Assembly: GCA_947588845.1 (NCBI GenBank)
Contig: CANQAR010000034.1
Coordinates: 1-39,033, forward strand
Source: an uncultured Lachnospiraceae bacterium
Lineage (GTDB): Bacteria; Bacillota; Clostridia; Lachnospirales; Lachnospiraceae
DNA: 39,033 nucleotides
Reading direction: 5' to 3'
Both the position numbers and the translations under genes were made by a program. The notes beneath the pieces were generated by a model. That model worked only from the letters and a program-made list of their open reading frames with translations, was not told the DNA's origin and ran no database searches. Shown piece by piece: positions 3,664-38,132 of this stretch; within the stretch, counting starts at the first letter, position 1, and the number at the start of each line of letters is the position of its first letter.

Positions 3664-3980
3664 ATGATGCCAGAGTCGAAAGGTCATGTGTTCCATGTTC
3701 ATATGGAAAAGCATGACACTGAGACCAAAAAAACACCGAAAAGAAGCCGTTTTTCATGGAAAAATGTGAAGATTTGAGGTGTTTCAGGATTTCGGGGGCG
3801 CTGTGCGCCAGTGGCGCACGTTCAGCGCCGGTTCTGAGCGCCAGCGGCGCTCGTTTAGAACCGACCGAAGCGGAGCGGAGACCCGGAGTGAAACGGAGAT
3901 TCGGGAGCACGAAGCGCGGAGAAACCACGGCATCATGGGGCAAACTACTTTTTGACGTTTTTTGCCCCCGGCAGCATCAT
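3664..3980 (+). repeat. Dispersed ATGATG/CATCAT element, copy 2 (317 bp)
   Basis: It runs from ATGATGCC (3664) to GCAGCATCAT (3980). The first 120 bases match the copies at 21407 and, in reverse, 34826 and 1. The interior has a GC-rich snapback region (GCGCCAGTGGCGC; GCGCCAGCGGCGC) that is longer than in the 34826 copy. The last 60 bases (GGAGAAACCACGGCATCATG onward) match that copy again. It fills the 442-base gap between the rpsR terminator and the XpaC-like gene, which holds no other convincing gene. The open frames across it are repeat-derived. Confidence 0.85.
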
Positions 3981-4018
3981 CGAAAACGGGAACGATCAAG
4001 GATTTGGGAGAAGGGAAA

Positions 4019-5755: not shown

Positions 5756-5766
5756 TTGTACCGGGT

Positions 5767-6010
5767 TTTCCGGGAGAAAGTGACTTTGCCGAAGATCAGA
5801 ATGGCGAGGCAGAAAAAACCGAACGCAGCAGGAGATTCTCCGGATGAAGACTTTCCAGGAGGAAGTGATTTTGCCGAAAATCAGAATGGCGAGGCAGAAA
5901 AAACCGAACGCAGCAGGAAATTCTCTGGATGAAAATTTTCCGGAAGGAAGTGATTTCGCCGGAGAACAAAGCAGCCAGAACAGAAAAGCAGCCGGTAGCA
6001 GGAGAAATAC
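5767..6010 (+). repeat. Three 85-bp tandem repeats between xpaC-like gene and telA
   Basis: Units start at 5767, 5852 and 5937. The first two are about 90% identical; the third diverges in its second half. Each contains GAAAGTGAC/GGAAGTGAT followed by TTTGCCGAA. Since 85 is not a multiple of three, each unit shifts frame. The same acidic peptide (SDFAE.QNGEAEKTERSR) is readable in a different frame in units 1 and 2. The third unit is read in frame with telA. Confidence 0.9.
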
Positions 6011-6026
6011 GAGGAGGAAACAGAAA

Positions 6027-7181
6027 ATGAGTGACCAGTTTAAAGATTACGCAGACGCGCCGACGCCGGTGCTGACTTTCGGCACACCTCTGCCGGAAGA
6101 GAAGAAAGTGCCTGAACCTGAGCCGGAGCCGGAACCGGCGAAGCCGCAGCTTGACGATAGTATGTTGTCCGAGGAAGAGCGGAAGATGGTGGATGATTTC
6201 AGCAGGCAGATCGATCTGCATGACTCAAACGGGATTCTGCAGTATGGCGCAGGGACACAGCACAAGATGGCCGAATTTTCAGAAAGTGCGCTGAATACGG
6301 TACGTACGAAGGATCTTGGGGAAGTCGGCGATATGATTTCCGGACTTGTGAGCGAGCTGAAGAGCTTTGACGCGGAGGAGGAAGACAAAGGCTTTTTCGG
6401 ATTTTTCAAAAAGAGCGGAAACAAAATCACGGCCATGAAGGCGAAGTATGAGAAGGCGGAAGTCAACGTGGAGAAGATCAGCGAGGTGCTGGAGGGGCAT
6501 CAGATCCAGCTTATGAAGGATGTCGCCATGCTGGACAAGATGTACGGCCTGAACCTTTCCTATTTTAAGGAGCTGTCCATGTACATTCTCGCGGGGAAAA
6601 AACGCCTGCAGGAGGTCCGGGACACGGAACTTGCGGATCTGGTCAGAAAAGCGCAGACGTCCAATCTTCCTGAGGATGCGCAGGCCGCGAAGGATGTGGA
6701 GGATCTCTGCGAACGTTTTGAAAAGAAAATCCATGATCTTGAGCTGACCAGAATGATCGCGATTCAGACGGCCCCGCAGATCCGTCTGGTGCAGTCGAGC
6801 AACACGATGATGATCGAAAAGATACAGACTACGCTTGTCAATACGATACCGCTCTGGAAGAGTCAGATGGTTATCGCACTCGGCGTCGAGCACGCGAACC
6901 AGGCGGCGAAAGCGCAGAGGGAAGTCACGGACATGACGAATCAGCTCCTGCGTAAAAATGCCGAGGCCCTGAAAATGGCTACGGTTGAGAGCGCAAAGGC
7001 TTCCGAGCGCGGGATCGTCGACCTGGATACGCTCAAGAATACGAACGCGGCTTTGATCAATACGCTGGACGAGGTCATGAAGATTCAGGAGGAAGGACGT
7101 CAGAAACGGTATGCCGCCGAGGAAGAGCTGAACCGCATGGAGCAGGAGCTCAAGAACAAGCTGCTGGAGATCCGCAGATAA
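6027..7181 (+). CDS. telA: TelA-like toxic anion resistance protein
   Basis: The 384-residue protein has a Pro/Glu-rich N terminus (PEPEPEPEPAKP, about 31-42) and then a long, mostly alpha-helical body typical of the TelA family (GFFGFFKKSGNKI, ILAGKKRLQEV, QTAPQIRLVQSSNTMMIEKI, QAAKAQREVTDMTNQLLRKN). TelA proteins are cytoplasmic and associated with tellurite, bacteriocin and cell-envelope resistance. They usually sit beside XpaC, as here. Start 6027 has GAGGAGGAAA just upstream. An in-frame ATG at 5844, inside the tandem repeats, lacks a ribosome site. Confidence 0.9.
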   Translation: MSDQFKDYADAPTPVLTFGTPLPEEKKVPEPEPEPEPAKPQLDDSMLSEEERKMVDDFSRQIDLHDSNGILQYGAGTQHKMAEFSESALNTVRTKDLGEVGDMISGLVSELKSFDAEEEDKGFFGFFKKSGNKITAMKAKYEKAEVNVEKISEVLEGHQIQLMKDVAMLDKMYGLNLSYFKELSMYILAGKKRLQEVRDTELADLVRKAQTSNLPEDAQAAKDVEDLCERFEKKIHDLELTRMIAIQTAPQIRLVQSSNTMMIEKIQTTLVNTIPLWKSQMVIALGVEHANQAAKAQREVTDMTNQLLRKNAEALKMATVESAKASERGIVDLDTLKNTNAALINTLDEVMKIQEEGRQKRYAAEEELNRMEQELKNKLLEIRR

Positions 7182-13146: not shown

Positions 13147-13254
13147 CGGAGATTGGCCTTACGGCGCAGCAGCCTGCGGGGGATTGGAAGATGTCGCTGA
13201 CGCGACCCGCCGCAGGCGGAAATAGACAGCAATGCAGAGGAGGAATAAAAGGGA

Positions 13255-13608
13255 ATGCAGCTTTTGGTATTAGTGTTGAAACGTACGGAACTTGTGGGAG
13301 AACTGATGCTTGAACTTGCCGAGGCGGGGATCCATGGCGGAACAATGCTTGACAGTACCGGCATGGCGAGCGTGCTCGGGGATCTGGATGATATGCCGAT
13401 GTTCAGTCTGCTCCGCTCCATGCTGAATCACGACGGGCACAGGGAGGCGAGCAAGACAATGCTGTTTGTGCTGGAGGAGTCTGAGGTAGACAAGGCAAGA
13501 CAGGTGATCCGGAATGTGGTCGGCGATCTGAGCGTGGCAAACTCGGCAGTGATGTTCGGACTGCCGGTATCCTTTGTGGAAGGACTTGGTGAAAAGAAAT
13601 GGAGTTGA
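13255..13608 (+). CDS. PII-like/ferredoxin-fold regulatory protein (117 aa)
   Basis: The product starts MQLLVLVLKRTELVGELMLEL and shows a beta-alpha-beta pattern repeated twice (LLVLVLKRTE, KTMLFVLEESEVDKARQVIRNVVG). This is the arrangement of PII-like regulators. It overlaps the downstream cation:proton antiporter gene by ten bases, so the two are co-translated. It is probably a small ligand-sensing subunit that gates the transporter. That role is inferred from the pairing, and the ligand is unknown. The ribosome site GAGGAGGAA precedes the ATG. Confidence 0.65.
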   Translation: MQLLVLVLKRTELVGELMLELAEAGIHGGTMLDSTGMASVLGDLDDMPMFSLLRSMLNHDGHREASKTMLFVLEESEVDKARQVIRNVVGDLSVANSAVMFGLPVSFVEGLGEKKWS

Positions 13609-14774
13609 ATACACTGACCTATCTGGCGATCTGCATCTTCGCGGGGCTGGCCGCCGGAAAGGTCGTAAAACAGATAAAACTGCCGAATGTGACGGGATAT
13701 CTGATCGTGGGCATACTGATCGGACCGTCCGTGCTGAAAATCATTCCGGCGGGAATTGTGGAGGAATTCGGACTGATCTCCGAGATGGCGCTTGGGTTCA
13801 TCGCTTTCTCGATCGGTGCGGAATTCAAGCTCTCCTATTTGAAAAGAGTAGGGAAAGCGCCAGTGATCATTGCGTTTATGGAGGCCATAGTGGCCGTACT
13901 TGCCGTAGACGCCGCACTGCTTGTGACAGGCAATGATCCGGCGTTTTCTGTCTGTCTTGGAGCGATTGCGGCCGCAACGGCTCCGGCAGCTACCCTGATG
14001 GTTGTGAAGCAGTACAACGCGAAAGGGCCCGTGACACAGACCCTGCTTCCCGTGGTGGCAATCGATGACGCCGCCGCACTGATTGCGTTTGGAATCTCTG
14101 TGGCGATCGCGAAGACAATCTCGTCGAGCGGCAGCGTGAATCTGCTGGAGACGATCCTTGATCCGGTCTGGGAGATCGGGGGCGCGTTTGTGTTCGGCAC
14201 GCTGCTTGGACTGCTGCTGGCCCTGCTCGTGAAATATTATCACAGCCGCGGCAACCGCCTGTCGGCGGCGATCGGTTTTGTATTTCTCTGCGTGGGCATC
14301 TGCGATATCGTCGGCTTTTCCTCGCTGCTTGCATGCATGATGATGAGCGCCATATTTGTGAATTTCTCGGATGAGAGTCCGCGCGTATTTGAGCTTGTGG
14401 ACCGGATGACGCCGCCGCTGTTCATGCTGTTTTTCCTTGTGTCGGGGGCGGATCTGAATCTTGCGGTCATCCCGACTGTCGGGCTGGTGGGAATACTCTA
14501 CGTTGTATTCCGCGTGATCGGCAAGGTGGCGGGCAGCGCAATCGGCTGTCGTATATCCCATGCGCAGCCGGTGGTGCAGAAATGGCTCGGCTTTACTCTG
14601 ATCCCGCAGGCCGGCGTGGCGATTGGTCTCTCAGGGATAGCGATGCAGGTAGTTCCGGAATATGGAGCTGCGATCCGCGCGATCATTCTCTGCGGAACCG
14701 TGATCTATGAGCTGATCGGTCCGATTGCAACGAAGCTGGCGCTGACAAAGGCGGGGGAGATCAAAGAAGGCTAA
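13599..14774 (+). CDS. Cation:proton antiporter, CPA2 family
   Basis: The 391-residue membrane protein has 11-13 hydrophobic helices and CPA2 landmarks: IKLPNVTGYLIVGILIGPS, EMALGFIAFSIGAEF, AATAPAATLMVVKQYN and the core VVAIDDAAALIAFG, which carries the paired aspartates used for ion/proton exchange. It lacks the C-terminal RCK/TrkA_N domain of KefB-type systems. The small PII-like protein encoded just upstream (10-base overlap) may take that regulatory place. It exports Na+ or K+ in exchange for H+ across the cell membrane. Confidence 0.9.
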   Translation: MELNTLTYLAICIFAGLAAGKVVKQIKLPNVTGYLIVGILIGPSVLKIIPAGIVEEFGLISEMALGFIAFSIGAEFKLSYLKRVGKAPVIIAFMEAIVAVLAVDAALLVTGNDPAFSVCLGAIAAATAPAATLMVVKQYNAKGPVTQTLLPVVAIDDAAALIAFGISVAIAKTISSSGSVNLLETILDPVWEIGGAFVFGTLLGLLLALLVKYYHSRGNRLSAAIGFVFLCVGICDIVGFSSLLACMMMSAIFVNFSDESPRVFELVDRMTPPLFMLFFLVSGADLNLAVIPTVGLVGILYVVFRVIGKVAGSAIGCRISHAQPVVQKWLGFTLIPQAGVAIGLSGIAMQVVPEYGAAIRAIILCGTVIYELIGPIATKLALTKAGEIKEG

Positions 14775-14901
14775 CGCCGTTTTCGCGGGCAATGCGTCAA
14801 ACGTCCATGCCCGCATGGATATCGGAAAAAACAGACGGTACGCAGGGCTGTCTGATGAAGCAGATCTGAATCCTGCGCCGGAATTTGTGTGCGGGTTTCG
14901 A

Positions 14902-14994
14902 ACAGAATCGAGTAGGAGGCGGCTTTCCCTCCTGCTCGCCGCGCGGCCCGTGTGCTGCGTCAGCAGTTATTTTCCTTACACGGGTCTGTGCACA
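14902..14994 (-). repeat. GC-rich double-hairpin repeat, copy A
   Basis: Read on the minus strand it matches the copy at 31095-31190: TGTGCACAGACCCG, then CTGCTGACGCAGCA, GGGCCGCGCGG, CGAGCAGGAGGG and a complementary CCTACTCG arm. It has two stem-loops, one formed by CCCGTGT/ACACGGG and one by the CGAGCAGG-type arms. It lies in the gap after the antiporter gene and encodes nothing convincing. Confidence 0.8.
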
Positions 14995-15004
14995 GCAGAA
15001 AAAC

Positions 15005-15040
15005 AGTGCCGGAGAACTGGATCTCCGGCACTTGTTTTCT
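15005..15040. terminator. Bidirectional intrinsic terminator
   Basis: A perfect 11-bp stem AGTGCCGGAGA/TCTCCGGCACT (15005-15015, 15022-15032) has a six-base loop. It is followed by TGTTTTCT on the plus strand and by GTTTTTCT on the minus strand. It serves the convergent antiporter and AraC-type transcripts. Confidence 0.9.
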
Positions 15041-15091
15041 GGCAGCCAGAAACTGTCAGGCAAAGGTATTTCTTTTATATTCTATGGGATG

Positions 15092-15481
15092 TCATCCCGG
15101 CATTTTCAGAAAATCTTTGGGGTTTTTCCCGAATTCCCGTTTGAATGCCTTCAGATAATTCGAATAATCATTAAATCCGCATTCCCGGCAGGCAACGGTC
15201 ACAGGTGTGCCTTCGCGCAGCAGGCCAAGTGAAAGCATCAGTCTCTTTTTCATGATGTACTGATAAACGGTTATTCCAGTGTAATTTTTAAACTGTTTGC
15301 AAAGATAAAATTTGCTGATATGAAACCGCCCCGACAGCTCGTCCAGAGACAGATTACAGGTGATATTTTTGTTGATATAAAGGAGAACCTGGTTGATTGT
15401 TTCGTTTTCCGTGACGTCATCCGCAATACCAGGATCGCCGGCAAACGTAATCGGCTGGCTTGTAAAAATATTTTCCGACAT
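15092..15481 (-). CDS. AraC-family DNA-binding protein, HTH domain only (129 aa)
   Basis: The protein has about 28 N-terminal residues followed by a complete double HTH domain (VLLYINKNITCNLSLDELS, FHISKFYLCKQFKNYTG, TVACRECGFNDYSNYLKAFK, FGKNPKDFLK). The usual N-terminal sensing domain of about 150 residues is absent. The 200 bases upstream have no remnant of it. AAAGGAG precedes the ATG. It is the last gene in the direction of the folate operon but is separated from the acyltransferase by 202 bases, so it may have its own promoter. The regulated genes are unknown. Confidence 0.85.
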   Translation of the reverse strand: MSENIFTSQPITFAGDPGIADDVTENETINQVLLYINKNITCNLSLDELSGRFHISKFYLCKQFKNYTGITVYQYIMKKRLMLSLGLLREGTPVTVACRECGFNDYSNYLKAFKREFGKNPKDFLKMPG

Positions 15482-15683
15482 ATGAACACAACTCCTTTCA
15501 TATGTAAATCATATCAGGCGTCCACGCTGACACGGATGTTTAATGAACATCATAATGTTTTTGGGAAATCCGTAAAATCAGGAGTACTTCTTGATCATAT
15601 AAAATATATTTTGCATTATATAACAATTATCACTATATTTCAAGATGAAATATCCAGTATCTGCATGTAAACAATAAAAGATG

Positions 15684-16634
15684 TCATTTTGAACGTTTTT
15701 TTCCTGCCAGAAAAGGCAGAAAGCTGTTTATAAACAGTGCGGCCGGAGTCAGAAGCGCGCAGACCAGGACCAGTGCGGCAAGACCTCCGGGGAAAGTGTC
15801 TGTATGAAGGCCAGGGATAAGCTGTACAATGCGGAGCACAATCATGTGAAGTCCGAGAAAAACCAGCGTGTTTTCCCCAATCCACTCAAGAATCCGGATA
15901 CGTACGCGTTTGAGCGCGGACAGGACAACAAAAGAACCCGCCGCCGCGCATACAGTGAACAGAAGAGGATTGCCGAAAGTCAGCTTGTAGATTCCCGTTT
16001 TGCCGTTGACCAGCGCGAGCGCGCCTTCCAGCCCGGCCAGAATTACGAGAGCGGCGGGGCGCGGGCTGCTTTCCAGGATCAGGCCGCATCCCGCGTATCC
16101 GAGCGCAAGAAATCCCACAGAAGAGCAGCAGCGCAGCGCGGCCGATAAAAGAGGACTGCCGTTGTTTTTCAGGAAAAACGGAATCAGATATAAAAGAATG
16201 GCTGCGGCTGTCATCAGCCGTCCGCTTTTCTCCGCCTTGAGCAGAAGAATGAGCAGAAGCTCCGAGAGAAAGAGCGTCGGCAGAAACCACAGCGGAACAT
16301 TCAGCGGGTTCAGCAGAAGCCCGCCCCAAATGTTCTGCCCATTGAAATTAAAATGATTTCGCAGTCCGTAAATTGCCGCAAATACGAATTCAAAAAAAAT
16401 ATAGGGAAGGATCAGTTCTTTCAGTCCGGAGAAAAAGACCTGCCTGACAGGGCGGTCTGCCGTCTGCGTATAGTTCAGCAGGATGCCGCTGATAACAAAA
16501 AACAGCGGAATGTGAAACGAATAGATCAGAACGGGCAGAATACCGTCTGTCTCCCAGATGTGCCCCAGAATCACAAGAAGCATTCCGAGGCCTCTGGCGG
16601 CGTCCAGAAAAAATAAGCGGGTTTTTCTGGTCAT
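15684..16634 (-). CDS. Acyltransferase 3 family membrane protein
   Basis: The 316-residue protein starts with the family signature RLFFLDAARGLGMLLVILGH and SFHIPLFFVISGIL. It has about ten membrane segments (LILPYIFFEFVFAAIYG, NVPLWFLPTLFLSELLLILL, and others). Such enzymes transfer acyl groups to sugars or other envelope compounds at the membrane. Its start overlaps the folB-folK stop by four bases (ATGA), so it is translated from the folate operon. The biochemical link to folate synthesis is not obvious. Confidence 0.85.
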   Translation of the reverse strand: MTRKTRLFFLDAARGLGMLLVILGHIWETDGILPVLIYSFHIPLFFVISGILLNYTQTADRPVRQVFFSGLKELILPYIFFEFVFAAIYGLRNHFNFNGQNIWGGLLLNPLNVPLWFLPTLFLSELLLILLLKAEKSGRLMTAAAILLYLIPFFLKNNGSPLLSAALRCCSSVGFLALGYAGCGLILESSPRPAALVILAGLEGALALVNGKTGIYKLTFGNPLLFTVCAAAGSFVVLSALKRVRIRILEWIGENTLVFLGLHMIVLRIVQLIPGLHTDTFPGGLAALVLVCALLTPAALFINSFLPFLAGKKRSK

Positions 16635-23220: not shown

Positions 23221-23280
23221 GAGCAGGATATGAAAGTGACGGAATCTGGTGAGAAGGCTGATCGAGAAGATTCCAGTTTA
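23221..23280 (+). pseudogene. 3'-end fragment of a large serine recombinase gene (left flank)
   Basis: These 60 bases align with 30710-30780 at the 3' end of the recombinase remnant on the other side of the methyltransferase island. Both have GAGCAGGATA..GAA.GTGA.GGAAT and GTGAGAAGGCTGATCG. The left copy lacks 11 bases in the middle. They form a direct repeat bracketing the island. The 80 bases further left hold nothing recognisable. Confidence 0.75.
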
Positions 23281-23321
23281 CGGAAATTGGTGATGCCATT
23301 GAGAAATAAGGAGATGACAAG

Positions 23322-25121
23322 GTGAGCGATATAAGGACAATATTTGAAAGACCGTTGCCTGCTACTAGAAATGGGGCTTTCTTTAATACATTTTCATATC
23401 CGACAAAAATATCACCTGAGTCAATAGCCATATATATTGTAGCCACAACCAGGCCCGGTGAAACAGTTTTAGATACGTTTAGCGGAAGTGGAAGTACTGG
23501 AATTGCTGCGTTATTATGTGAGCATCCTACTGAACGTATGAAAGAATTGGCAGGCGATTTAGGCATAGATCCTGTTTGGGGCCCAAGAAATGCTATTGGG
23601 TATGAGATAGGAACCTATGGTTCATTTGCCGCAAAGACTATAAGCAGCAGGTTAAAAGCAAATGAGTTTAAAAAGGCAGTGACTGATTTTGTCGGAAAAG
23701 CAGGAGAACAGTTGATGCATTATTACTCTGCTGTAGATCCTGATGGGAAAACTGGAATAATACGTTATATCATATGGTCTGAAATTCTTTTATGTCCATA
23801 TTGTGGTGAGGAAATCTCTTTTTTTGAAAGAGGAACCAGACGAAATCCTGTTATATTTGAAAAGGATATTATTTGTCCGCACTGCAGGAAGAAGACTTCT
23901 GTTGATGAAATGAAATTTCAGACAGAAGAGTATATGGATGGATTAACAGGAAAATCAGAAATAAGGAAGAAGCGTCTTCCATCATGGGTTTATGGGACTA
24001 CGAATGGTAAAAACTGGGATAGACCGGCAACGAATGAAGATCTTGAAAAAGCGGCTGCAATTGAGCGGGAAATGCAAGATTTAAATGATTTGCCTAAAGA
24101 GATACAATGGGGAGAATTACATAGAAATGGATATCATTTTGGGATTTCATATTTGCATCAATTCTATACAGCCCGAAACTATTTAATTATGCGTAAACTG
24201 TGGGATGCCGCAAATACGTATAGTCCGAAAGTGAAAGATGCCCTGCGACTGCTGCTGCTTAGTTATAATGCTTCGCATTGTACCTTGATGACGCGCGTTG
24301 TCGCCAAAAAGAATGCGAAAGATTTTGTTTTGACAGGGGCGCAAAGCGGAGTTCTTTATATTAGTAAACTTCCAGTTGAAAAGAATATTATTCTTGGACT
24401 TGAAAGAAAATCAAAACCATTTTATGAAGCATATAAATTGTTGGAGAATTGTACAGGAGATTATCTTATAAAGAATAAGTCAAGTGAAAAATTAGATGAA
24501 GAAGAAAACACGATAGATTTTGTATTTACAGATCCGCCTTTTGGCGATTTTATTCCTTATGCAGAGGTTAATCAGATCAATGAATTATGGTTAGAAAAAA
24601 CTACAGATAGAAAAAGAGAAATTATAATCAGTGCATCTCAAAATAAAGGAATCAGCGATTATCAGGCGATGCTCTCAAAGGTTTTTTCTGAGATTAAGAG
24701 AGTGTTAAAGGATTCATCATATGCTGCTGTTGTTTTTCATGCGGCAAAGGCGCAGATATGGAGTGCTTTTGAGAATTCCGTTTCTGACGCTGGATTAAAC
24801 GTTGAACTAACAAATATCCTGGATAAAAAGCAGGCCAGTTTTAAGCAGGTTGTATCAGAAGCATCTGTTCAGGGGGATCCATTATTACTATTAAGTAAAA
24901 AGATTCAAAAAGAGGGTGAGATTGAAGATGAAGAAGATATTATGGAAAGAATTATCTTATCAATGGAAGAAGAAAATAATTTTGATGAACGGAGAGTATA
25001 TTCTTTATACGTCAATGAATGTCTCCGAAAAAGTATTCATGTAACATACGATGCTAAAGATGCGTATATCCTTATTCGTCAATTAAGAAAGGATGTTATG
25101 GATGCAGCGCTGCAGGGATGA
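23322..25121 (+). CDS. DNA methyltransferase with internal zinc ribbon (island gene 1, 599 aa)
   Basis: The SAM-binding motif lies near the N terminus (VLDTFSGSGSTGIAAL, residues 49-64) and the catalytic motif near the C terminus (TDPPFGDF, 403-410). This order differs from the usual beta-class N4/N6 methylases. Between them are two CxxC pairs (CPYC 158-161, CPHC 185-188) that form a zinc ribbon, and a helical region. It probably methylates adenine N6 or cytosine N4 in DNA. It starts with GTG after AAGGAG and overlaps gene 2 by about 20 bases. Codons are A/T-rich compared with the neighbours at 20-23 kb. DUF1156-type methylases are the nearest group I can name, with doubt. Confidence 0.75.
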   Translation: MSDIRTIFERPLPATRNGAFFNTFSYPTKISPESIAIYIVATTRPGETVLDTFSGSGSTGIAALLCEHPTERMKELAGDLGIDPVWGPRNAIGYEIGTYGSFAAKTISSRLKANEFKKAVTDFVGKAGEQLMHYYSAVDPDGKTGIIRYIIWSEILLCPYCGEEISFFERGTRRNPVIFEKDIICPHCRKKTSVDEMKFQTEEYMDGLTGKSEIRKKRLPSWVYGTTNGKNWDRPATNEDLEKAAAIEREMQDLNDLPKEIQWGELHRNGYHFGISYLHQFYTARNYLIMRKLWDAANTYSPKVKDALRLLLLSYNASHCTLMTRVVAKKNAKDFVLTGAQSGVLYISKLPVEKNIILGLERKSKPFYEAYKLLENCTGDYLIKNKSSEKLDEEENTIDFVFTDPPFGDFIPYAEVNQINELWLEKTTDRKREIIISASQNKGISDYQAMLSKVFSEIKRVLKDSSYAAVVFHAAKAQIWSAFENSVSDAGLNVELTNILDKKQASFKQVVSEASVQGDPLLLLSKKIQKEGEIEDEEDIMERIILSMEEENNFDERRVYSLYVNECLRKSIHVTYDAKDAYILIRQLRKDVMDAALQG

Positions 25122-27084
25122 AAATTTTAAGATTAAACGATATGGGCAGGTTTTTTCCGGAAAACTGGTAGGTGATCTGCTGGTATCAATGTTACCCCCA
25201 AACCTGGCGGTCAAAACGATAGTTGATCCAATGGCTGGACGGGGAGATTTATTACAGGCAGCACATGCAAAGTATCCGCGGGCAGATGTAATTTTGGGAA
25301 TAGACATTGATAAAGATGTCATGGAGATGTGTAATACTATTGTTCCGGAAGCAAGGATACTTATTGAGGATGCCTTCAGAAGCGAAGAAATAGATATTGC
25401 GGACGGGTGGGATTTAGTAATTACGAATCCTCCCTATATCAGGTACCAAACGCTCAAAAATAATCCTGAAATAGGTCTGCCAGATGGAAAAGAACTTAGA
25501 GAAAGTCTGATAAAACATATTCAACGATCAAAACTGTTAGATGACCAGGAGAGACACCTGTATCTTGAAATTTCAAAAAATTACTCAGGTCTTTCGGACA
25601 TGGCCGTGCCAGCATGGATTTTATGTGCATCCATAGTGAAACAAGGCGGATACATGGCTATGGTTGTGCCTGAAACGTGGCTGAACAGGGATTATGCATT
25701 GCCGATTCACTATTTGCTTCTGCGTTGCTTTGAGATTATCGCTATAGCGCATGATGTAGAGTCTGCATGGTTTGAAAATGCCGAGGTAAGAACATGCCTG
25801 GTTATATGTAAAAGAAAAGAAAACAAACCTATAGATAATAATTATTCAGATACAGTTCTGCTGGAATTAAGTTCCGGAATAATAGATCAGAATTCTCTTG
25901 TGGGCAATATGAAGTATGGCAGCAGTGTTGGCTATGAAGCTTTGAATCAGATTATTTCCACGAAAGCAACTGGTTCATCAGAAGGCTTTTCTTCAAGAAT
26001 AGTTTCCGCATTGGAATTGTTTCCTGGTTTAATAGGGAGGATCAATGGGCAGAGGTGGATTTATAAAGAAGATAAACTGAAAGTTGAGGGTTATACCTGC
26101 CTTCCAAATGAAATAAGAGGAATAGTAAGTAAGAGTAATGAAGTTGAGTATGATTCATTAGAAACGCTTGGGTGGTCTGTTGGTCAGGGTCTAAGGACTG
26201 GTGCAAATGATTTCTTTTATGCACGGGTATTATTAGAAGATGCAATGTCTGTTGTTCAAACGGAACCATGGTATGACCGGGAGATAGTGTTGCCCTCAGA
26301 CAATGTTAGAAAAGCCTTTAAGAAACGGTCTGACATAAGTGGACTTGTGGTTAATTATGATGATTTGGAAAGATGTATATTTTATATTCAGAATCAGGTA
26401 AGAAAAGTAGATTATCAGAGAGTATCGCATAAAGTGATTGCAAATTATACTTTGATGGATCCTGACTTAGATGATTATGTTACCCAGGGGGAAACGTATA
26501 TATCGCCATCGCACAGGAGAGCTTTTAAAGAGTTGTCGGCTGTCATTACGAATGAAAAGAAAACGGGTGATGAATTTGAAAGATTCTGGTATATGCTTCC
26601 TCCATTAAAGGAAAGACATGTGCCAAACTTATGTATTTCCCGCGTTTGCGGTGAAAGTCCTGAAACAATATTTGTAAATCAGATAGCGGAAAAGGAAATA
26701 ATTGTTGATGCAAATTTTATTACGCTTTGGAATCAAGATCGGCAGGCCCAATTAATGGCATTTGCATTATTAAACTCTACATGGGCAAAGCTTTTTTTTG
26801 AAATCGCAGGCACAACAATGGGCGGTGGCGCATTAAAAGTTGAAGCGAGTCATGTGCGAAAAATAGTATTTCCAAGACTTGATAATGAGAAGAAAAAAGA
26901 ACTTGAAAACATTGGCAAAACAATTCTAAAAAAAGGGAGTATTAACCGGAAGATTCAAAAGCAAATAGATGAAATTGTAACCTTTCCTTTTGGAGAAGAA
27001 AACAGAGTATCTGTGAGTAATCAGCTGGAAGAATTACTTATTAGAAAAATGCGTGAAAGGACTGGGCGAAAATATGATGAATAA
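25102..27084 (+). CDS. N6-adenine DNA methyltransferase, Eco57I-like (island gene 2, 660 aa)
   Basis: The motif order is that of gamma-class adenine methylases: GQVFSG (15-20), VDPMAGRGDLL (41-51), GIDID (66-70) and catalytic NPPY (109-112). About 500 residues follow that contain a likely TaqI/Eco57I-type DNA-recognition domain (LLNSTWAKLFFEIAGT, ALKVEASHVRKIVFP). No nuclease motif is evident. ATG 25102 is eight bases after AAAGGA. ATG 25093 is in frame but overlaps that site. The gene overlaps both neighbours, showing one translation-coupled operon. Confidence 0.85.
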   Translation: MQRCRDENFKIKRYGQVFSGKLVGDLLVSMLPPNLAVKTIVDPMAGRGDLLQAAHAKYPRADVILGIDIDKDVMEMCNTIVPEARILIEDAFRSEEIDIADGWDLVITNPPYIRYQTLKNNPEIGLPDGKELRESLIKHIQRSKLLDDQERHLYLEISKNYSGLSDMAVPAWILCASIVKQGGYMAMVVPETWLNRDYALPIHYLLLRCFEIIAIAHDVESAWFENAEVRTCLVICKRKENKPIDNNYSDTVLLELSSGIIDQNSLVGNMKYGSSVGYEALNQIISTKATGSSEGFSSRIVSALELFPGLIGRINGQRWIYKEDKLKVEGYTCLPNEIRGIVSKSNEVEYDSLETLGWSVGQGLRTGANDFFYARVLLEDAMSVVQTEPWYDREIVLPSDNVRKAFKKRSDISGLVVNYDDLERCIFYIQNQVRKVDYQRVSHKVIANYTLMDPDLDDYVTQGETYISPSHRRAFKELSAVITNEKKTGDEFERFWYMLPPLKERHVPNLCISRVCGESPETIFVNQIAEKEIIVDANFITLWNQDRQAQLMAFALLNSTWAKLFFEIAGTTMGGGALKVEASHVRKIVFPRLDNEKKKELENIGKTILKKGSINRKIQKQIDEIVTFPFGEENRVSVSNQLEELLIRKMRERTGRKYDE

Positions 27085-30000
27085 AGATGAATTAAGATCA
27101 TTTGTGACAATTGCTCAGCGTGAAATAGATAATGGTTCTGTGGAAGATAAACTTAGACATTTACTATCAGCGAGTCTGAGTAAAATATTCCAGGATACAC
27201 CCTGGTGGGTTCAAGAACATGTGATGGGCATAGAGACCTATCTTCATTTTGCGAATACTAAAGGAAAAGAAAGAACAGGGTTTGCGGATTCAGTAGTTGG
27301 AAAAACTGCGATCGAATACGAGAAGAATCTGAAAATACCTGCTGTTTTTAATGAGGGATACCATCAGGTGGAGGAATACTGTGCAGCGCTGTGTAATTTG
27401 GGCATAGATGAAAAGGAGATCCTTGGAATACTGTCAGATACGGTGAGATGGTATGGATATACGATTAAAATTGTTGGAAATCAGGATCGGGAAAGACTGT
27501 TTGGGGCTGATGATATTGAATTAGAACAAGTTGATTTTGTTGATTTGTCTAATTGTTCGGACGAGGAAATGGAAAAGTTCGAATTGTTCATGAATAAGTA
27601 TCTGGGAAGAGAACAGTCCAGGATTCTTACAGCAAAAACACTGGTGCTTGATTTCGGTTTGGAAAGTGATTTTTATCGTAAAGAAATTAAAGGATACAGA
27701 GACGTGGTAGAGATTGCAATGCATTCAAATCCAGCTTATGCAGATCTGATCAAAACGGTATGGCAAAATTTTGTTGCATATTTAGGAGCATCCGAATACG
27801 GGATGTTTTCAAAGAATACCTATACAAACGAATATTATCTGGTAACTGTTGCAAAGATTATTTGCGCCAATATTCTTAACGGAACTCCGCTTATCTGCAA
27901 TGATATGGAGATTATTAAAATATTGAATGGACAATATTTTCAACAGAAAAATATTCAGAACCTTGTAGACTATGATTATTTTGGATGGTTAAACAGTTTG
28001 CCTTATGTTGACGGTATTGTTGAAAGTGCAAAAAGAATCCAAAGACTTTTAGTCAGTTATGACTTTAAGGTTATAGCTGAAGAAGATCTGTTTGGGGCCT
28101 TATTGGCGCAGTTATCGAATCGTGAACATCGTTTGCTTTTGGGGCAGGATTTCACGCCTCATTGGGTTGCGGAAAGTATGGTTGAGCATGCCATAAAAAA
28201 TATTGAAGAAGAACCTCGAATATTGGATATGTGCTGCGGCTCAGGAGTATTTCTGATTGAAGCAATCAGAAAAGTACGGGAGAAATATGCAATTAACACA
28301 CAAAATTATGATTCTGTAAAAGACGAAATGGTATTTTCATGTGTTATGGGTTTTGATATTGATCCGCTTGCCGTTATGCTTGCGAAAGTTAACTGGGTAA
28401 TGTCTATGAGGGATTTATTTCCATATCATAATGGTCAAATTACCATCCCTGTTTATCATGCAGATTCCCTTTTTGTAGCAACGCCTGTTACGCATAACAT
28501 GCCTTCAGGCAGTCAGGACTCTTATATTATGTATTTTGACAATAACGAGGTTGAAATTCCGGGTCATATGCTGACTCCTGCTCATCGACGTACTTTTGAC
28601 GCATTTATGTCTATTTGCTATAAATACGCTATGAAAAGAGCCGAGCAAAAGGAAAGCAGTCTTACAGATAAACAGCTTGATTATGTTCTGACTTCTGTAG
28701 AATCAGAAAGTAGTATTGTTTTGTCCCATATGGAGCGACAGGCTCAAAGGGTGGCAGCATACAATTTGATATTACAGTTGGAAGATCTTCAGAGAAAGGG
28801 ACGAAACGGGATTTGGTATTTCATTCTGAATAACAGCTATAAGCCAGGTCTGGTTGCAAACCAATTTAATTGTATTGTCTCTAATCCACCATGGCTGGCA
28901 ATGAGTAAACTGGCTGATAATCCATATAAGGAAATATTGCAGAAAAAAACAGATTCCTTCGGTATAAAGCCGCCTGGAGCATCTCATCTTCATATGGAAC
29001 TGGCAACAACCTTTTTAATAGCATCAATTGATAAATATTTGAAGGATGGCGCGAGATGGATGTGCGTTATGCCAGGGAGTATTTTGAGCGGATATCATCA
29101 TGATCCTCTCAGAATGGAGAAGTATAGAGATTCGGCGTATTCAGTAGATACCAGTATAGATACAATTTGGGAATTGCCAATATCTACATTCAAAAATAAA
29201 GCGGTAGTTCTTGGAGGAATCAGGACAGACAAAAAATCTGAATATCCAATTTCAGGAAGAGTATATGAAAACCCGGATTCATATACGGAGTGTAACTATA
29301 CTCTCAATAAACAGGGCAACCGGTCCGCATGGACAAACAAAGGAGAGAATGCTGAGCTTTTGGATATTATTAATTCGAATCCCTGGGAATTCAATCAGGG
29401 CGCCGATATTATGCCAAGAACGGCTTTGTTCCATGAATTTGTCCGGTTACCTAATGGAACATGGTCGATTAAAAAAATCGAGAATACATCGGAGTTGTAT
29501 TATCTGCTTAATGACAGCCATAAAAATGTATGCAGAGATTTGACAGCCGAAGGTTTCAGTAATGATTATATGTATGACTGTTTAATTTCAAAGCATCTGT
29601 CTCCATTTTTTGTTTCAGAACCTGTTAAGGTTATCCTTCCGGGAAAAAAGACGGAGGAAAAATGGAGAGGACTTACCGATGAAGAAATAGCTTTGATGAA
29701 TTCAGGAACGTCCTATGTTTTTACTGAGATTCAAACAGAGAGTAAAATGCCGTTATCTGCTTTGTTTGATCAGAAGATTAACATACGAAACAAGTTGGAT
29801 AAACAGAATTTCGCGTTGGCAAGATGGCTTGTTTTATCTAATGCAGGAGGCACTAATCCATGTGCAGCTTATATTGATTTGAATAAAATGGATAAGAAAA
29901 GGCTGATTGTTGATCAGACATTGTACTGGTATTTAGCAGAATCTGAAGAAGAAGCACTTTACATTGTGGGGATACTGAATAGTGTTGCATTATCATCTGC

Positions 30001-30298
30001 AATATCTGATTTTCAGCCGCAGGGAGGATTCGGTCCAAGGCATATTCATACGATACCATATAAGATTATTCCACGATATGATGGAACTGATGATGCGCAT
30101 ATGGAGGTAGTTACAAGGACAAAAGAGTTGATTGCAGAATGGACAGAATACTGCCGTTCTGAAAAGACTGGAAAGTATATCTCTCCGAATAGTGGAAGTT
30201 TAAACAGTAGGAGACGTAAGCTGCAAACAGTTCTTAAGACAATGGCTTCGTATGGGAAGTATGAGAAAGCATGCAGTAGTATTCTGTGTACAGAATAG
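27074..30298 (+). CDS. Putative bifunctional restriction-methyltransferase (PD-(D/E)XK-like N terminus plus N6 methylase; island gene 3, 1074 aa)
   Basis: Residues 70-130 read GFADSVVGKTAIEYEKNL, then YHQVEEYCAAL and GILSDTVRWYGY. This is the pattern of PD-(D/E)XK nuclease domains in type IIG/type I enzymes (D72, E81, K84, Q98). At the usual Lys position the residue is Glu83, with Lys84 next, so activity is uncertain. The methylase core follows: GQDFTP (357-362), ILDMCCGSGVFLIEAI (383-398), GFDIDP (426-431) and catalytic SNPPW (603-607). A long insertion separates the last two. The final 450 residues probably recognise DNA. The start overlaps gene 2 by 11 bases. It would be the cutting and modifying enzyme of the island. 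Confidence 0.8.
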   Translation: MMNKDELRSFVTIAQREIDNGSVEDKLRHLLSASLSKIFQDTPWWVQEHVMGIETYLHFANTKGKERTGFADSVVGKTAIEYEKNLKIPAVFNEGYHQVEEYCAALCNLGIDEKEILGILSDTVRWYGYTIKIVGNQDRERLFGADDIELEQVDFVDLSNCSDEEMEKFELFMNKYLGREQSRILTAKTLVLDFGLESDFYRKEIKGYRDVVEIAMHSNPAYADLIKTVWQNFVAYLGASEYGMFSKNTYTNEYYLVTVAKIICANILNGTPLICNDMEIIKILNGQYFQQKNIQNLVDYDYFGWLNSLPYVDGIVESAKRIQRLLVSYDFKVIAEEDLFGALLAQLSNREHRLLLGQDFTPHWVAESMVEHAIKNIEEEPRILDMCCGSGVFLIEAIRKVREKYAINTQNYDSVKDEMVFSCVMGFDIDPLAVMLAKVNWVMSMRDLFPYHNGQITIPVYHADSLFVATPVTHNMPSGSQDSYIMYFDNNEVEIPGHMLTPAHRRTFDAFMSICYKYAMKRAEQKESSLTDKQLDYVLTSVESESSIVLSHMERQAQRVAAYNLILQLEDLQRKGRNGIWYFILNNSYKPGLVANQFNCIVSNPPWLAMSKLADNPYKEILQKKTDSFGIKPPGASHLHMELATTFLIASIDKYLKDGARWMCVMPGSILSGYHHDPLRMEKYRDSAYSVDTSIDTIWELPISTFKNKAVVLGGIRTDKKSEYPISGRVYENPDSYTECNYTLNKQGNRSAWTNKGENAELLDIINSNPWEFNQGADIMPRTALFHEFVRLPNGTWSIKKIENTSELYYLLNDSHKNVCRDLTAEGFSNDYMYDCLISKHLSPFFVSEPVKVILPGKKTEEKWRGLTDEEIALMNSGTSYVFTEIQTESKMPLSALFDQKINIRNKLDKQNFALARWLVLSNAGGTNPCAAYIDLNKMDKKRLIVDQTLYWYLAESEEEALYIVGILNSVALSSAISDFQPQGGFGPRHIHTIPYKIIPRYDGTDDAHMEVVTRTKELIAEWTEYCRSEKTGKYISPNSGSLNSRRRKLQTVLKTMASYGKYEKACSSILCTE

Positions 30299-30320: not shown

Positions 30321-30838
30321 TCAAAAGTTACGCCGGGGCTGCAATACCGGTATCAGAATGGGGAGGTACGGGTAAACCATAACCGTTTCCTCGGATACAC
30401 GAAGGATCAGGAAGGGCACCTGGTTATAGAGTCGGCGGAGGTGGTAAAGCGGATCTACCGGGAGTATCTGGAGGGAGGAAGCCTGCTCCAGACCGCCAGA
30501 GGGCTGGAAGCAGACGGCATCCTTACAGCCGCAGGCAAGGCAAAGCGGCGGCCGGAGACGCTTAAGAAGATCCTGCAGAACGAAAAATATATTGGAGACG
30601 CGCTCCTGCAGAAGACATACACGGCAGATTTCCTGAGAAAGCACTGGCGGAGAGAGCTGAACGGGAGGGCCTGAAGAAGCGGGTCGCGGAGATGCGGAAG
30701 TTTTTGCGTGAGCAGGATACGAAGGTGATGGAATATGATGAGCAGCTGGTGAGAAGGCTGATCGGGAAAGTTACAGTTTATGATGAGCGGTTTGAGGTGG
30801 AATTCAAATCGGGTGTGAAGGTGGATGTGGAGAGATAA
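30321..30838 (+). pseudogene. Large serine recombinase remnant (right flank of island)
   Basis: The frame from 30321 reads a Recombinase domain ([60 protein letters not shown]) and stops at 30674. The final coiled-coil and C terminus (EQLVRRLIGKVTVYDE, EVEFKSGVKVDVER) continue in another frame to 30838. The catalytic resolvase domain and the zinc-ribbon part are missing. It begins 22 bases after island gene 3, so the gene was broken at or near the insertion point. The 3' end recurs at 23221. Confidence 0.85.
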
Positions 30839-30936
30839 ACCAGATTATGGAAAGGTCCTGCAGGTTTCAATGGAGCCTGCAGGGTCTGCTGCTTAATGAC
30901 GCGGGTTGAAAAATAGAAAACGTGAAAAGTGCAGAG

Positions 30937-33200: not shown

Positions 33201-34178
33201 ATGAGTATGTATGAAAATCTGGTCATGCAGACACAGATGAATTATTCCAGATATTATGGGCTGTATGCCGCCGGGAAAACGCCGGTGAAATTGAGTGAGA
33301 AAACGCCGCTGCCTTATGAAAAGCAGGTTGAGGAATTTGCCAAAAAAGTGAGAGAGGCGGACTGCGTTGTGGTCGGAGGTGCGTCCGGGTTATCCGCGGC
33401 AGGGGGCGGGGACTTTTATTACGGGGACACGCCGTCTTTTCGGCAGTATTTCGGAAAGTTTGCGGACAAATACGGTTTTAAGGGGGCCTTTTCCGGTATG
33501 CAGTACCCATACCGGACACGCGGGGAGTTCTGGGCTTATCTTGCCACGTTCCTGCACACCACGCAGACGGCGCCGATAAGGAAGCCTTATCTTGATCTCG
33601 ATCAGATCCTGTGCGGGAAAGACTTTTTTATTCTGACAACCAATCAGGATACGCAGTTTGTGAAGATCTATCCGGAGGAAAAAGTTGCCGAGATTCAGGG
33701 CGACCACAGATTTTTTCAGTGTTCCAGACAATGTTCCGATCGTACGTGGGATGCGGTGGAACCGGTAAAGCAGATGATGGAGGCGATGGGGAACGGGACC
33801 AGTATTCCGGAGGAGATGATCCCGCGCTGTCCAAACTGCGGAGCGGAGGCGTTTCCGTGGGTACGCGGCTATGGAAATTTCCTGCAGGGCAGAAAATATG
33901 ACGAACAGTACCAGAAAATATCGAAGTATATTACAGAACACAAAGGTAAAAAAATCCTCTTTCTGGAGCTCGGGGTAGGAAGGCTGACCCCGATGTTTAT
34001 ACAGGAGCCGTTCTGGAACCTGACGCTGAATTTTGAAGATGCCTTTTATATTGCGGTCAATGACCAGTATGATTTCCTGCCGCAGCAGATCGAGGAAAAA
34101 GGTTTTGTGATAAAGGCGGATATCGGACGAACGCTGGAGGACGCGGCGGCGGAGATGAAAGAAGGGATGCGGACATGA
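33201..34178 (+). CDS. Class M sirtuin-like protein (SirTM)
   Basis: This is a 325-residue protein. VVVGGASGLSAAGGGDFYYG is followed by YFGKFADKYGFKGAFSGMQY, ILTTNQDTQFVKIYP, AEIQGDHRFFQCSRQC and IPRCPNCGAEAFPW, then LFLELGVGRLTPMFIQ. The Gln in EIQGD (Q166) stands where classic sirtuins have the catalytic His. A Gln here is, from memory, the feature of streptococcal SirTM, an ADP-ribosyltransferase for lipoylated GcvH-L. Zinc Cys are C174, C178, C210 and C213. Start 33201 has GGAGGGAGG. The partners GcvH-L, macrodomain and LplA2 are not in the window. Confidence 0.8.
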   Translation: MSMYENLVMQTQMNYSRYYGLYAAGKTPVKLSEKTPLPYEKQVEEFAKKVREADCVVVGGASGLSAAGGGDFYYGDTPSFRQYFGKFADKYGFKGAFSGMQYPYRTRGEFWAYLATFLHTTQTAPIRKPYLDLDQILCGKDFFILTTNQDTQFVKIYPEEKVAEIQGDHRFFQCSRQCSDRTWDAVEPVKQMMEAMGNGTSIPEEMIPRCPNCGAEAFPWVRGYGNFLQGRKYDEQYQKISKYITEHKGKKILFLELGVGRLTPMFIQEPFWNLTLNFEDAFYIAVNDQYDFLPQQIEEKGFVIKADIGRTLEDAAAEMKEGMRT

Positions 34179-34795
34179 CACAAAACGAGCAGACAAAAGA
34201 AAACCGCGCGTTTATGGAAATGATGAAAGCAGCCAGGGAATGGCTCTCCGGCAGAGATCCGAAGGATATTGCCCAAAAGGCCGGCATCGATTACGATGAG
34301 GGGGCGAAGAGGTTTTCGCTCATAGGCCTCGGCATGGAAATAAGTATCAGCTATCCGAATTATGAGATGGAGCCGTACCTCAATGAATGGCAGCAGCTGG
34401 TCATTCTGCACTATATGAGGCTGGCGGACGGGACGCCGCTTCAAGGGCAGTGGATAACGATGGGAGAGGTGAAAGACGGCCTGATTCGGGGCGGAGACTT
34501 TGACCGGCGGTGTGAGAATGTGATCCGCAGCCGCTTAAGTCAGATCGCAGAAGAGGATCTGGAGGAAAAATGCCGGGCTATCGGAGGAAAGGTAATGCAG
34601 AGCAACGCGGATTTCACGGTTTGCTTTTATTTTCTGCCGCATTACCCGCTGTTGTTGAAACTATGGTTTGCGGACGAGGAATTTCCTGCATCCGGGAAAC
34701 TACTTTTGGATACCAGCGCGGATCATTATCTGATGATTGAGGACGCGGTAACCGTGGGGCAGATCATCATGGAGACGCTGGCGGGGGTATTTTAA
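34175..34795 (+). CDS. DUF3786 family protein
   Basis: The 206-residue protein fits DUF3786: IAQKAGIDYDEGAKRFSLIG, ILHYMRLADGTPLQGQWIT, FLPHYPLLLKLWFADEEFPA, LLLDTSADHYLMIEDAVTVG. DUF3786 proteins occur beside CooC-like ATPases and corrinoid or CO-dehydrogenase genes in anaerobes, but their activity is not known. The start overlaps the sirtuin stop by four bases (ATGA), so it is co-translated with it. A second, broken DUF3786 gene lies at 38145. Confidence 0.85.
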   Translation: MTQNEQTKENRAFMEMMKAAREWLSGRDPKDIAQKAGIDYDEGAKRFSLIGLGMEISISYPNYEMEPYLNEWQQLVILHYMRLADGTPLQGQWITMGEVKDGLIRGGDFDRRCENVIRSRLSQIAEEDLEEKCRAIGGKVMQSNADFTVCFYFLPHYPLLLKLWFADEEFPASGKLLLDTSADHYLMIEDAVTVGQIIMETLAGVF

Positions 34796-36443: not shown

Positions 36444-37214
36444 ATGGGACATATCATAGCGGTCGCCGGAAAAGGCGGCGTAGGAAAAACGACATTGTGT
36501 GGACTGTTGATTCAGTATTTATGTGAAAGCGGAAAAAAACCGGTGCTGGCGGTGGATGCGGACGCGAACTCGAATCTGAATGAGGTGCTTGGCGTGGATG
36601 TGGAGGTTACCCTGGGCGAATTGCGCGAGGAGATTGAGCGCGCGGGCGTGGACAGCCGTTATCAGATCCCGTCCGGGATGACGAAGCAGGCGTATCTGGA
36701 AATGAGGCTGGCGGATGCGGTTGCGGAGCAGGACGATTACGATCTGATGGTGATGGGACGGACGCAGGGGCAGGGCTGCTACTGCTTCGTCAATGGCCTG
36801 GTCCAGACGCAGATTCAGAAGCTTCAGAGTCAGTATCCCTATGTGGTGGTGGACAATGAGGCCGGCATGGAGCATATCAGCCGAGGCCTGATCCCGACCA
36901 TGGAGACGGCCATACTGGTGAGCGACTGCTCCAGGCGGGGCGTACAGGCGGCAGGCAGGATTGCGGCCTTGATGAAGGAACTGAATTTCAAACCGAAGAA
37001 GGTGGGCCTGATTGTGAACCGCGCGCCGGAAGGAAAACTGGATGAAGGGACGATGGAAGAGATCAACAAACAAGGATTAAATCTTCTGGGCGTAGTGCCT
37101 CATGACCCGAATGTATACCGGTATGACTGCGACGGGAAGCCGATCATCCAGTTGCCCAAAGACTCGCCGGTATGTAGCGCGCTATGCGATATTGCGCAGA
37201 AGCTGGAGTTATGA
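36444..37214 (+). CDS. cooC: CooC-type nickel/CO-dehydrogenase maturation ATPase
   Basis: The 256-residue P-loop ATPase of the MinD/CooC group has GKGGVGKTT (10-18), the signature VDADANSNLNEVLG, the metal-binding GCYCFVNGL (C112, C114) and VVVDNEAGMEHISRG. CooC binds Ni and ATP and inserts nickel into CO dehydrogenase. Related proteins serve corrinoid iron-sulfur proteins. The CxC motif is intact, which supports function. No CO dehydrogenase is in the window, so the client is unknown. AAAGGAG precedes the start. Confidence 0.85.
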   Translation: MGHIIAVAGKGGVGKTTLCGLLIQYLCESGKKPVLAVDADANSNLNEVLGVDVEVTLGELREEIERAGVDSRYQIPSGMTKQAYLEMRLADAVAEQDDYDLMVMGRTQGQGCYCFVNGLVQTQIQKLQSQYPYVVVDNEAGMEHISRGLIPTMETAILVSDCSRRGVQAAGRIAALMKELNFKPKKVGLIVNRAPEGKLDEGTMEEINKQGLNLLGVVPHDPNVYRYDCDGKPIIQLPKDSPVCSALCDIAQKLEL

Positions 37215-37252
37215 GAATCCTTGGCATCATGTCATTAAGTTTGGCGATTCCG

Positions 37253-37310
37253 GACGCCGCAGGGGACAGGAATATCTCCGGGTGGACGCCCTGTCCTTTT
37301 TGCGGCCGTC
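37253..37310 (+). promoter_or_regulatory. Intercistronic hairpin between the two CooC-like genes
   Basis: GACGCCGCA plus GGGGACAGG (37253-37270) pairs with CCTGTCC plus TGCGGCCGTC (37290-37310). It makes a long stem with small bulges around a 19-base loop. No T run follows. It may stabilise RNA or tune expression between the genes. Confidence 0.5.
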
Positions 37311-37358
37311 TAAATGACAATGGAGAAGCAATAAAAATGAGGAAAGGACAGATACAAA

Positions 37359-38132
37359 ATGAAGATAACGATATGCGGAAAAGGCGGTTGCGGAAAAAGT
37401 ACGGTGACAACACTTTTGGGAAAAGAACTTGTCCAAAAAGGGCAGAAGGTGCTGATTATTGATTCGGATGAGTCGAATTACGGGCTGCACCGTCAGCTGG
37501 GAGTGGAACTTCCAAGAGACTTCACAGAGTATTTCGGCGGTAAGGATAAAGCCTTCAAGACAATGATGACGAGCGGCATTCTGGAACAGATGAAGCTCTC
37601 CGCCTTTGCGAAGAAATTCTTCTCGGAAACCTGGACGCTGGATGATATTCCGGAAGAATACGTTGAAAAGAAGGACGGCATTATGCTGATGTCTGGCGGC
37701 AAAATAAGAAAGGCAAATGAAGGCTGTGCCTGCACGATGAACAGCATTATCGAGCAGTTTATCACCCATCTGCAGCTGGGCGAAGATGAGACTGCGCTTC
37801 TGGATATGGAGGCCGGCGTGGAGCATTTTGGAAGAGGAACGGACAACGGTGTGGACAAGGTTGTCATGGTTGTCGATCCATCCTATGAATCTCTGCGGCT
37901 TTCCAAAAAGATCAGGGATCTGGCAGAAAGTATTGGAAAGCCGGTCTATTATGTGCTGAATAAAGTGACAGAGGAAAACAGGGACCTTATGCTGGAGGAG
38001 GTTGCGGACCGGAATGCTGTGGTGGCCTGTATCCCGTTATCACAGAAGATATCGAAAGAGGGACTGTGCGGGCAGGAACTTACGGAAAGAGCGCCGGAAG
38101 TGGAAGAACTGGCCGAAAAACTGTTGAGGTAA
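37359..38132 (+). CDS. CooC-like P-loop ATPase (second)
   Basis: The 257-residue protein has GKGGCGKST (7-15), IIDSDESNYGLHRQLGV, the CxC motif GCACTMN (C123, C125) and LLDMEAGVEHFGRG. It is a different subgroup from the first CooC-like protein, but keeps the CxC pair that binds metal. Two ATPases together suggest either a heterodimer or two clients. AGGAAAGGACAG upstream provides a ribosome site. A TTG-start DUF3786 remnant follows 12 bases after the stop. Confidence 0.85.
   Translation: MKITICGKGGCGKSTVTTLLGKELVQKGQKVLIIDSDESNYGLHRQLGVELPRDFTEYFGGKDKAFKTMMTSGILEQMKLSAFAKKFFSETWTLDDIPEEYVEKKDGIMLMSGGKIRKANEGCACTMNSIIEQFITHLQLGEDETALLDMEAGVEHFGRGTDNGVDKVVMVVDPSYESLRLSKKIRDLAESIGKPVYYVLNKVTEENRDLMLEEVADRNAVVACIPLSQKISKEGLCGQELTERAPEVEELAEKLLR

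Follow-up and report, generated by a model that had tools for sequence, protein, structure and literature searches.

What do three overlapping methyltransferase genes do in an AT-rich island that holds no helicase or specificity gene? The question is raised by a 39,033-nucleotide contig of an uncultured Lachnospiraceae bacterium (CANQAR010000034.1 of assembly GCA_947588845.1; this whole stretch is called the window below), in which positions 23322–30298 are occupied by three long open reading frames (ORFs), all on the + strand in the ORF list of the window. These genes, M1, M2 and M3, are referred to together as the trio.

23322–25121, + strand: M1, 599 amino acids (aa), an amino-methyltransferase (N6-methyladenine, m6A, or N4-methylcytosine, m4C) with a core like that of BREX (bacteriophage exclusion) type-3 methylases (PglXI/BrxXI)
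25093–27084, + strand: M2, 663 aa, a gamma-class N6-adenine methyltransferase with a C-terminal region of its own
27077–30298, + strand (ORF call from 27053, 1081 aa): M3, about 1073 aa, a Type IIG-like restriction-modification (RM) protein
23308–23313, + strand: the likely ribosome-binding site of M1, AAGGAG, as read from the sequence

Taking together the domain content, catalytic motifs, predicted nuclease fold, gene order, cassette boundaries and purifying selection computed here, we conclude that the trio is very probably a complete, horizontally moving Type IIG RM system in which a combined RM enzyme is accompanied by two methylases.

The combined enzyme is M3. It contains the motifs DMCCGSG (residues 392–398) and NPPW (611–614) and matches the PADLOC model REase_MTase_IIG (9e-61) and Pfam N6_Mtase (2e-11). 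Its chain continues from a PD-(D/E)XK-fold nuclease, predicted by modelling at the N-terminus, into a gamma-class (NPPY/F/W) methylase domain and then a recognition domain.

27077–27622, + strand: N-terminal PD-(D/E)XK-like nuclease domain of M3, with D71, E80-x-E82 and Q97 invariant (counted from 27077)
28883–28894, + strand: NPPW catalytic motif of the M3 methylase domain, invariant in 7/7
29378–30178, + strand: C-terminal target-recognition region of M3

In structure comparison, the fold of M3 matches M.BseCI, CamA, BpuSI, DrdV, BrxX, MmeI and BsaXI; the root-mean-square deviations are large because the full-length model is poor (predicted local distance difference test score 59.9), only the separate N-terminal model being solid. 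The profile and structure searches suggested in a first-pass annotation of this DNA were productive for M1 (PglXI) and M2 (M.BseCI), both described below, for M3 (REase_MTase_IIG) and for the N-terminal nuclease fold, and drew a blank in sequence searches of the PDB, where neither M3 nor its nuclease profile matched any entry, those of BpuSI included.

M2 displays DPMAGRG at residues 45–51 and NPPY at 112–115, matches the Pfam families Eco57I (4e-9) and N6_Mtase (1e-5), and has M.BseCI as its closest solved relative (5e-11). It is the fastest-evolving protein of the three, above all in residues 251–350 and 401–450. As the alignment of the M2 and M3 profiles is limited to 70 columns of the S-adenosylmethionine (SAM)-binding region (probability 75), we claim no recognition domain common to both.

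M1 carries LDTFSGSG (residues 50–57) and DPPF (404–407), so that motif I precedes motif IV with about 345 residues between them. It matches PF01555 (N6_N4_Mtase) at 6e-14, and its best match is the PADLOC model PglXI (5e-99). The insert contains a further conserved element.

23793–23885, + strand: four-cysteine (CxxC...CxxC) zinc-ribbon-like motif in the M1 insert (C158, C161, C185, C188), invariant in 7/7 aligned homologues

Judged by its sequence, M1 has the architecture of BREX type-3 methylases, in which a four-cysteine motif lies in a large insert in the core, as described for BrxXI (PglXI) in PMC12839542 (here and below, statements on published systems follow the available portions of the cited papers). 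Outside BREX, the available text of that paper reports no homologues of this insert, while the same insert is described there for BREX-related (BR) methylases. M1 differs from BrxXI in that it sits outside BREX and that its 599 aa are probably too few to include the C-terminal helix-turn-helix region of BrxXI. The SAM and catalytic motifs (DPPF, NPPY and NPPW) that the first-pass annotation had read in the three coupled genes are therefore all located.

The genes are tightly packed. M1 and M2 overlap by 29 base pairs (bp) if M2 starts at ATG 25093 and by 20 bp if it starts at ATG 25102; M2 and M3 overlap by 8 bp (ATG 27077), 11 bp (ATG 27074) or 32 bp (ORF start 27053). The overlaps of about 20 and 11 bases given earlier hence lie within ranges of 20–29 and 8–32 bp, depending on the start codon. 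With ATG 25093 and ATG 27077 as starts, the overlaps of 29 and 8 bp are identical to those in two related loci, L039 and L041, and across the 10 loci measured no overlap exceeds 29 bp and no gap 21 bp. The GC content of the island is 0.378 compared to 0.509 for the remaining window, and its third-position GC of 0.28–0.33, against 0.605–0.695 in five other window genes measured, bears out the AT-richer codon use noticed at first. A strong contrast with the surroundings is also seen in L039 and L040. The cassettes of viral contigs L078–L082 and plasmid L033, with a GC content of 0.44–0.65, are within 0.05 of their own flanks, and the contrast is therefore no general property of the trio.

The three-gene order, whose occurrence in other genomes the first-pass annotation had proposed to look for, is found on a single strand at 14 loci, the window included. 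The others are in an uncultured Acetatifactor (L039), Candidatus Mediterraneibacter norfolkensis (L040), a Lachnospiraceae bacterium (L041), two genomes of the window's family (L042 in G100 and L043 in G026), one genome of its genus (L123 in G694), a Hymenobacter plasmid (L033) and six IMG/VR contigs (L077–L082, of which L081 and L082 are near copies). The lowest identities to the window proteins among these loci are about 41–42% for M1, 30–31% for M2 and 34% for M3. Twelve of the 14 have all three genes in open frames (L080–L082 being judged on the matched stretch), and M1 of L077 is truncated by the contig end. M1 of the Hymenobacter plasmid is split between two frames (L033, 11047–12842), through a frameshift or a sequencing error, next to open frames for M2 and M3. 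The contig of a fifteenth locus, L130, measures 3 kb and truncates both M2 and M3. M1 stands alone in L083 and L085, and contig L084 stops inside M2.

The distribution of the trio is patchy. M3 is matched at E ≤1e-50 in 2 of 47 genomes of the genus, at ≥60% identity in 3 of 299 genomes of the family, at E ≤1e-60 in 2 of 391 genomes of the class (one being the cut L130) and, at the same threshold, in 3 of 398 genomes of the phylum, two of them with more distant enzymes; M1 at ≥50% identity is found in 2/398 of the phylum, the host genome (G000) and G689. Two Bacillota genomes, G636 and G676, encode M3-like proteins with E below 1e-60; no M1 or M2 match surrounds the gene in G676, and in G636 the M1-like matches are elsewhere on the contig. 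Only one of 72,556 plasmid records holds all three genes. The trio is absent from 50,697 named phage records, among which 19 have an M3 match, in no case across 80% of the protein, and one matches M1 partly. A scan of the viral data with M3 alone gave no match, but alignment queries did find viral loci, that with M1 returning 23, eight of them at ≥37% over more than 300 residues. Wherever a close M3 was found, its partners were there too: M2 adjoins it in 10/10 loci from M3 queries (window included), and M1, whole or partial, accompanies it in 9/9 loci where the contig permits a verdict.

The ratio of nonsynonymous to synonymous substitution rates (dN/dS) is 0.033–0.142 in 16 of 30 gene-pair comparisons, values that are rough because dS is 1.0–3.5 in these pairs, and dS is saturated in the other 14. 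The trio is under purifying selection, and this, together with a gene order kept in 14 loci, shows that the three-gene arrangement is not due to chance.

What moves is the trio itself. Among the five closest loci (the window, L039, L040, L041 and L123), blastn similarity starts −21 to +19 bp from the M1 start and stops −39 to +14 bp from the M3 end in 10/10 pairs. As the similarity ends at the trio edges though the flanks differ, the moving unit comprises just the three genes. In L123 the cassette lies directly before an RNase E/G gene, and in L040 the trio is all that separates rimM from trmD. The first-pass annotation had considered that a helicase or nuclease gene might simply have been lost from the group; given these boundaries and the L040 arrangement, we reject this idea, since homology between the five loci stops at the outer trio borders, which means that nothing has been lost between or beside the genes.

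In the window, the cassette comes after an rlmD-like gene, which is found in 6/6 genus stretches and is preceded by the same HD-domain gene in the four that show that side. In the genus relatives L116–L121, differing genes lie 3′ of rlmD, including what by eye are ParA/ParB-like ones in L117, so the 3′ side of rlmD may be an insertion hot spot. Remains of a recombinase border the cassette.

30324–30842, + strand: disrupted 3′ portion of a large serine recombinase, immediately after the cassette (PF07508, 1.4e-13 for 30324–30665; frame broken beyond)
23221–23264, + strand: short scrap like the end of the same recombinase just before the cassette (19/19 bases match 30746–30764 and 22/25 match 30710–30734)

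L079, L080 and L082 have intact serine recombinases upstream of the trio. L077, a phage contig, carries the trio alongside genes for terminase, portal and capsid; here a restriction system would be phage cargo, perhaps directed against rival phages. The compact cassette thus has representatives in contigs of Lachnospiraceae and of viruses and on a Bacteroidota plasmid.

Ten neighbours from seven loci were tested by Pfam and nine proteins, mostly the same ones, by PADLOC. Defence genes adjoin the trio in four loci: McrB- and McrC-like genes in L078, QatC in L080, a PLD/NgoFVII-like gene in L081 and, in L041, an AAA_13 ATPase gene (PADLOC PDC-S06, 3825–6155) on one side and an EVE + AAA_5 (McrB-like) gene (13216–16098) on the other. 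The L079 neighbour, a DUF2326 protein, weakly matches candidate defence ATPases, that of L042 is a DNA polymerase A, and that of L043 had no match in these tests. As none is constant across loci, no neighbour belongs to the core. By eye, short pieces resembling the L041 flanks seem to persist beside the trio in L039 and L040. To the right of the island, the window contains a DUF3786 gene (34175–34795) and two tandem ParA/MinD-like (CbiA-domain) ATPase genes (36444–38132).

How might the three proteins work together? By analogy with BpuSI and BseRI, we infer a common target, a division of its strands between the methylases, cutting of unmodified DNA and a role in defence. M3 would bind the target via its C-terminal recognition domain, could methylate adenine there with its gamma-class domain, and would cut unmodified (invading) DNA at a fixed distance with its N-terminal nuclease. 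M1 and M2 would be the main host-protecting methylases, modifying the cell's own DNA; on the asymmetric target of M3, one strand is probably marked by M2 (gamma, m6A) and the other by M1 (m6A or m4C). This division of labour, with cutting left to M3 and protection of the two strands to M2 and M1, is drawn from the parallel with BpuSI. In G689 there is an M1–M2 pair (L076, 4613–8420) with the M3 match absent from the assembly, possibly a methylation-only remnant; an M1–M2 pair without M3, and close M3 proteins that always have M2 beside them, would fit a system whose dangerous member is M3.

A bolder version of this system, which we regard as a long shot, would have M1, M2 and M3 form one assembly in which M1 and M2 read the modification of the site and license or restrain the E-x-E Type IIG nuclease. 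If true, this would be an ATP-free bridge from BREX-like discrimination to Type IIG cutting, in a minimal cassette spread by phages and plasmids.

Improbable, in our estimate, is an epigenetic, methylation-only system in which the M3 nuclease is a dead DNA-binding fold and the marks, set on host or phage DNA, serve regulation or protection from other restriction systems. It would account for the missing lysine at the E-x-K place in 10/10 trio M3 proteins, and self-protecting methylation would help a phage such as L077 in which the trio rides. However, D71, E80 and E82 are invariant in the same 10/10 and the dN/dS of M3 is 0.03–0.09 in its computable pairs (6/10), from which we conclude that the nuclease site is kept. 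Of eight Type IIG-like relatives at a greater distance, two likewise have E-x-E, which is an active variant in some known enzymes, e.g. BamHI; M3 offers a natural E-x-E variant of the Type IIG nuclease. In addition, M1–M2 exists without M3, but no close M3 was seen without M2.

It is similarly doubtful that the trio encodes a single multi-subunit enzyme, nearer to BREX or Type I, in which, for example, M1 and M2 regulate M3 or detect modified phage DNA. The class of M1 and the tight gene packing, which persists in divergent loci, would fit such an enzyme, but each protein has methylase motifs of its own plus a further region for recognition, the unit is devoid of an ATPase, helicase or PglZ, and in BpuSI a companion methylase acts alone (PMC3817140).

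Could the trio be part of a larger known system? M1 relatives of about 30% identity have PglZ within 10 kb in 13 of 16 genomes (the exceptions being G345, G451 and G647), against 0/4 for PglZ on the M1-bearing contigs of G000, G100, G026 and G689. No BrxC/DUF499 ATPase or helicase is present in the trio or the 10 window neighbours scanned (ATPase families were not searched genome-wide), and the trio edges in the five closest loci leave no space for one. BREX membership is rejected on these grounds. The host probably carries BREX elsewhere, as two strong PglZ matches lie on other G000 contigs (C168:3427 and C3:21867, in open frames of 899 and 874 aa). Type I membership is rejected because separate HsdR translocase and HsdS specificity genes are absent from the three trio genes, and DISARM (defence island system associated with restriction-modification) because no helicase, drmA-type ones included, is found in the trio or the scanned neighbours. 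The earlier picture of a self-contained operon that combines three methylases with a single embedded nuclease, here placed at the M3 N-terminus, and has no helicase or specificity gene is borne out. In an M1 tree of 48 rows (midpoint root only, seven rows of unusual letter make-up; M1 of L033, in two frames, M1 of L077, cut, and L084, at a contig end, excluded from alignment and tree), 14 trio-type rows (12 from trios, two with M1–M2 or M1 only) separate with branch support of 100/100 from 34 others, of which 28 are labelled BREX-like by similarity and six are viral. That the trio is a decayed or partial BREX, BREX-related or DISARM island bereft of its helicase, ATPase or PglZ is thus extremely improbable: the core and four-cysteine insert of M1 resemble BREX type-3 methylases and its distant relatives mostly lie near PglZ, but the absence of PglZ from the four M1 contigs, the homology that stops at the trio edges and the split in the tree all speak against it.

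The number of companion methylases of a Type IIG enzyme ranges from zero through one (Eco57I) to two (BpuSI) (PMC4081073), and enzymes with two are known in both separate and fused forms, BpuSI being RM with M1 and M2, and BseRI RM with a fused M1~M2 (PMC3874165, PMC4081073). The suggestion of a possibly undescribed type of system must hence be withdrawn. In the literature searched, with subscription journals and REBASE outside the search, we met no account of the M1-M2-M3 trio, and BpuSI and BseRI are its nearest parallels. The Type IIL enzymes DrdV and MmeI also rank among the closest known systems, MmeI being described in the available text as lacking a separate companion methylase (PMC3817140, PMC4081073). 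Eco57I pairs a combined enzyme (RM.Eco57I) with a separate gamma methylase (M.Eco57I), as M3 with M2 (PMC3874165), but this is its single companion.

The BseRI enzyme has companions of the same two classes as the trio, amino-methylase (m4C) and gamma (PMC3874165), but they are fused, whereas M1 and M2 are separate genes; this likeness is drawn from the published description. In Rhizobium, an enzyme that bears the BseRI annotation (L124) shows 23% identity over 74% of M3. One gamma-like methylase, unlike M1, adjoins that enzyme, and none of the remaining genes there has a methylase annotation. An M1~M2 fusion beside it is rejected, since the 945-aa neighbour is weakly gamma-like and has only 18 columns in common with M1, at the catalytic motif.

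BpuSI, like the trio, combines one Type IIG/IIC enzyme (nuclease, gamma methylase and recognition domain) with two separate methylases. Both companions were considered necessary for the system to be stable in vivo, the methylation by RM itself being 4–6 fold weaker than that by M1.BpuSI (PMC3817140). In the model, the nuclease fold of M3 matches that of RM.BpuSI, but M3 is without the motif lysine. Furthermore, one BpuSI companion is a 5-methylcytosine methylase (PMC3817140, PMC3874165), whereas M1 of the trio is a BREX type-3-class amino-methylase. The trio places this class beside a Type IIG enzyme in a simple ATPase-free unit, so that its target and strand are open to study with three genes. 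The organisation of the trio, with two further methylases encoded beside the RM enzyme, is that of BpuSI and BseRI; what looks new is a subfamily with a BREX type-3-class M1, a lysine-free nuclease motif and movement as an exact three-gene cassette.
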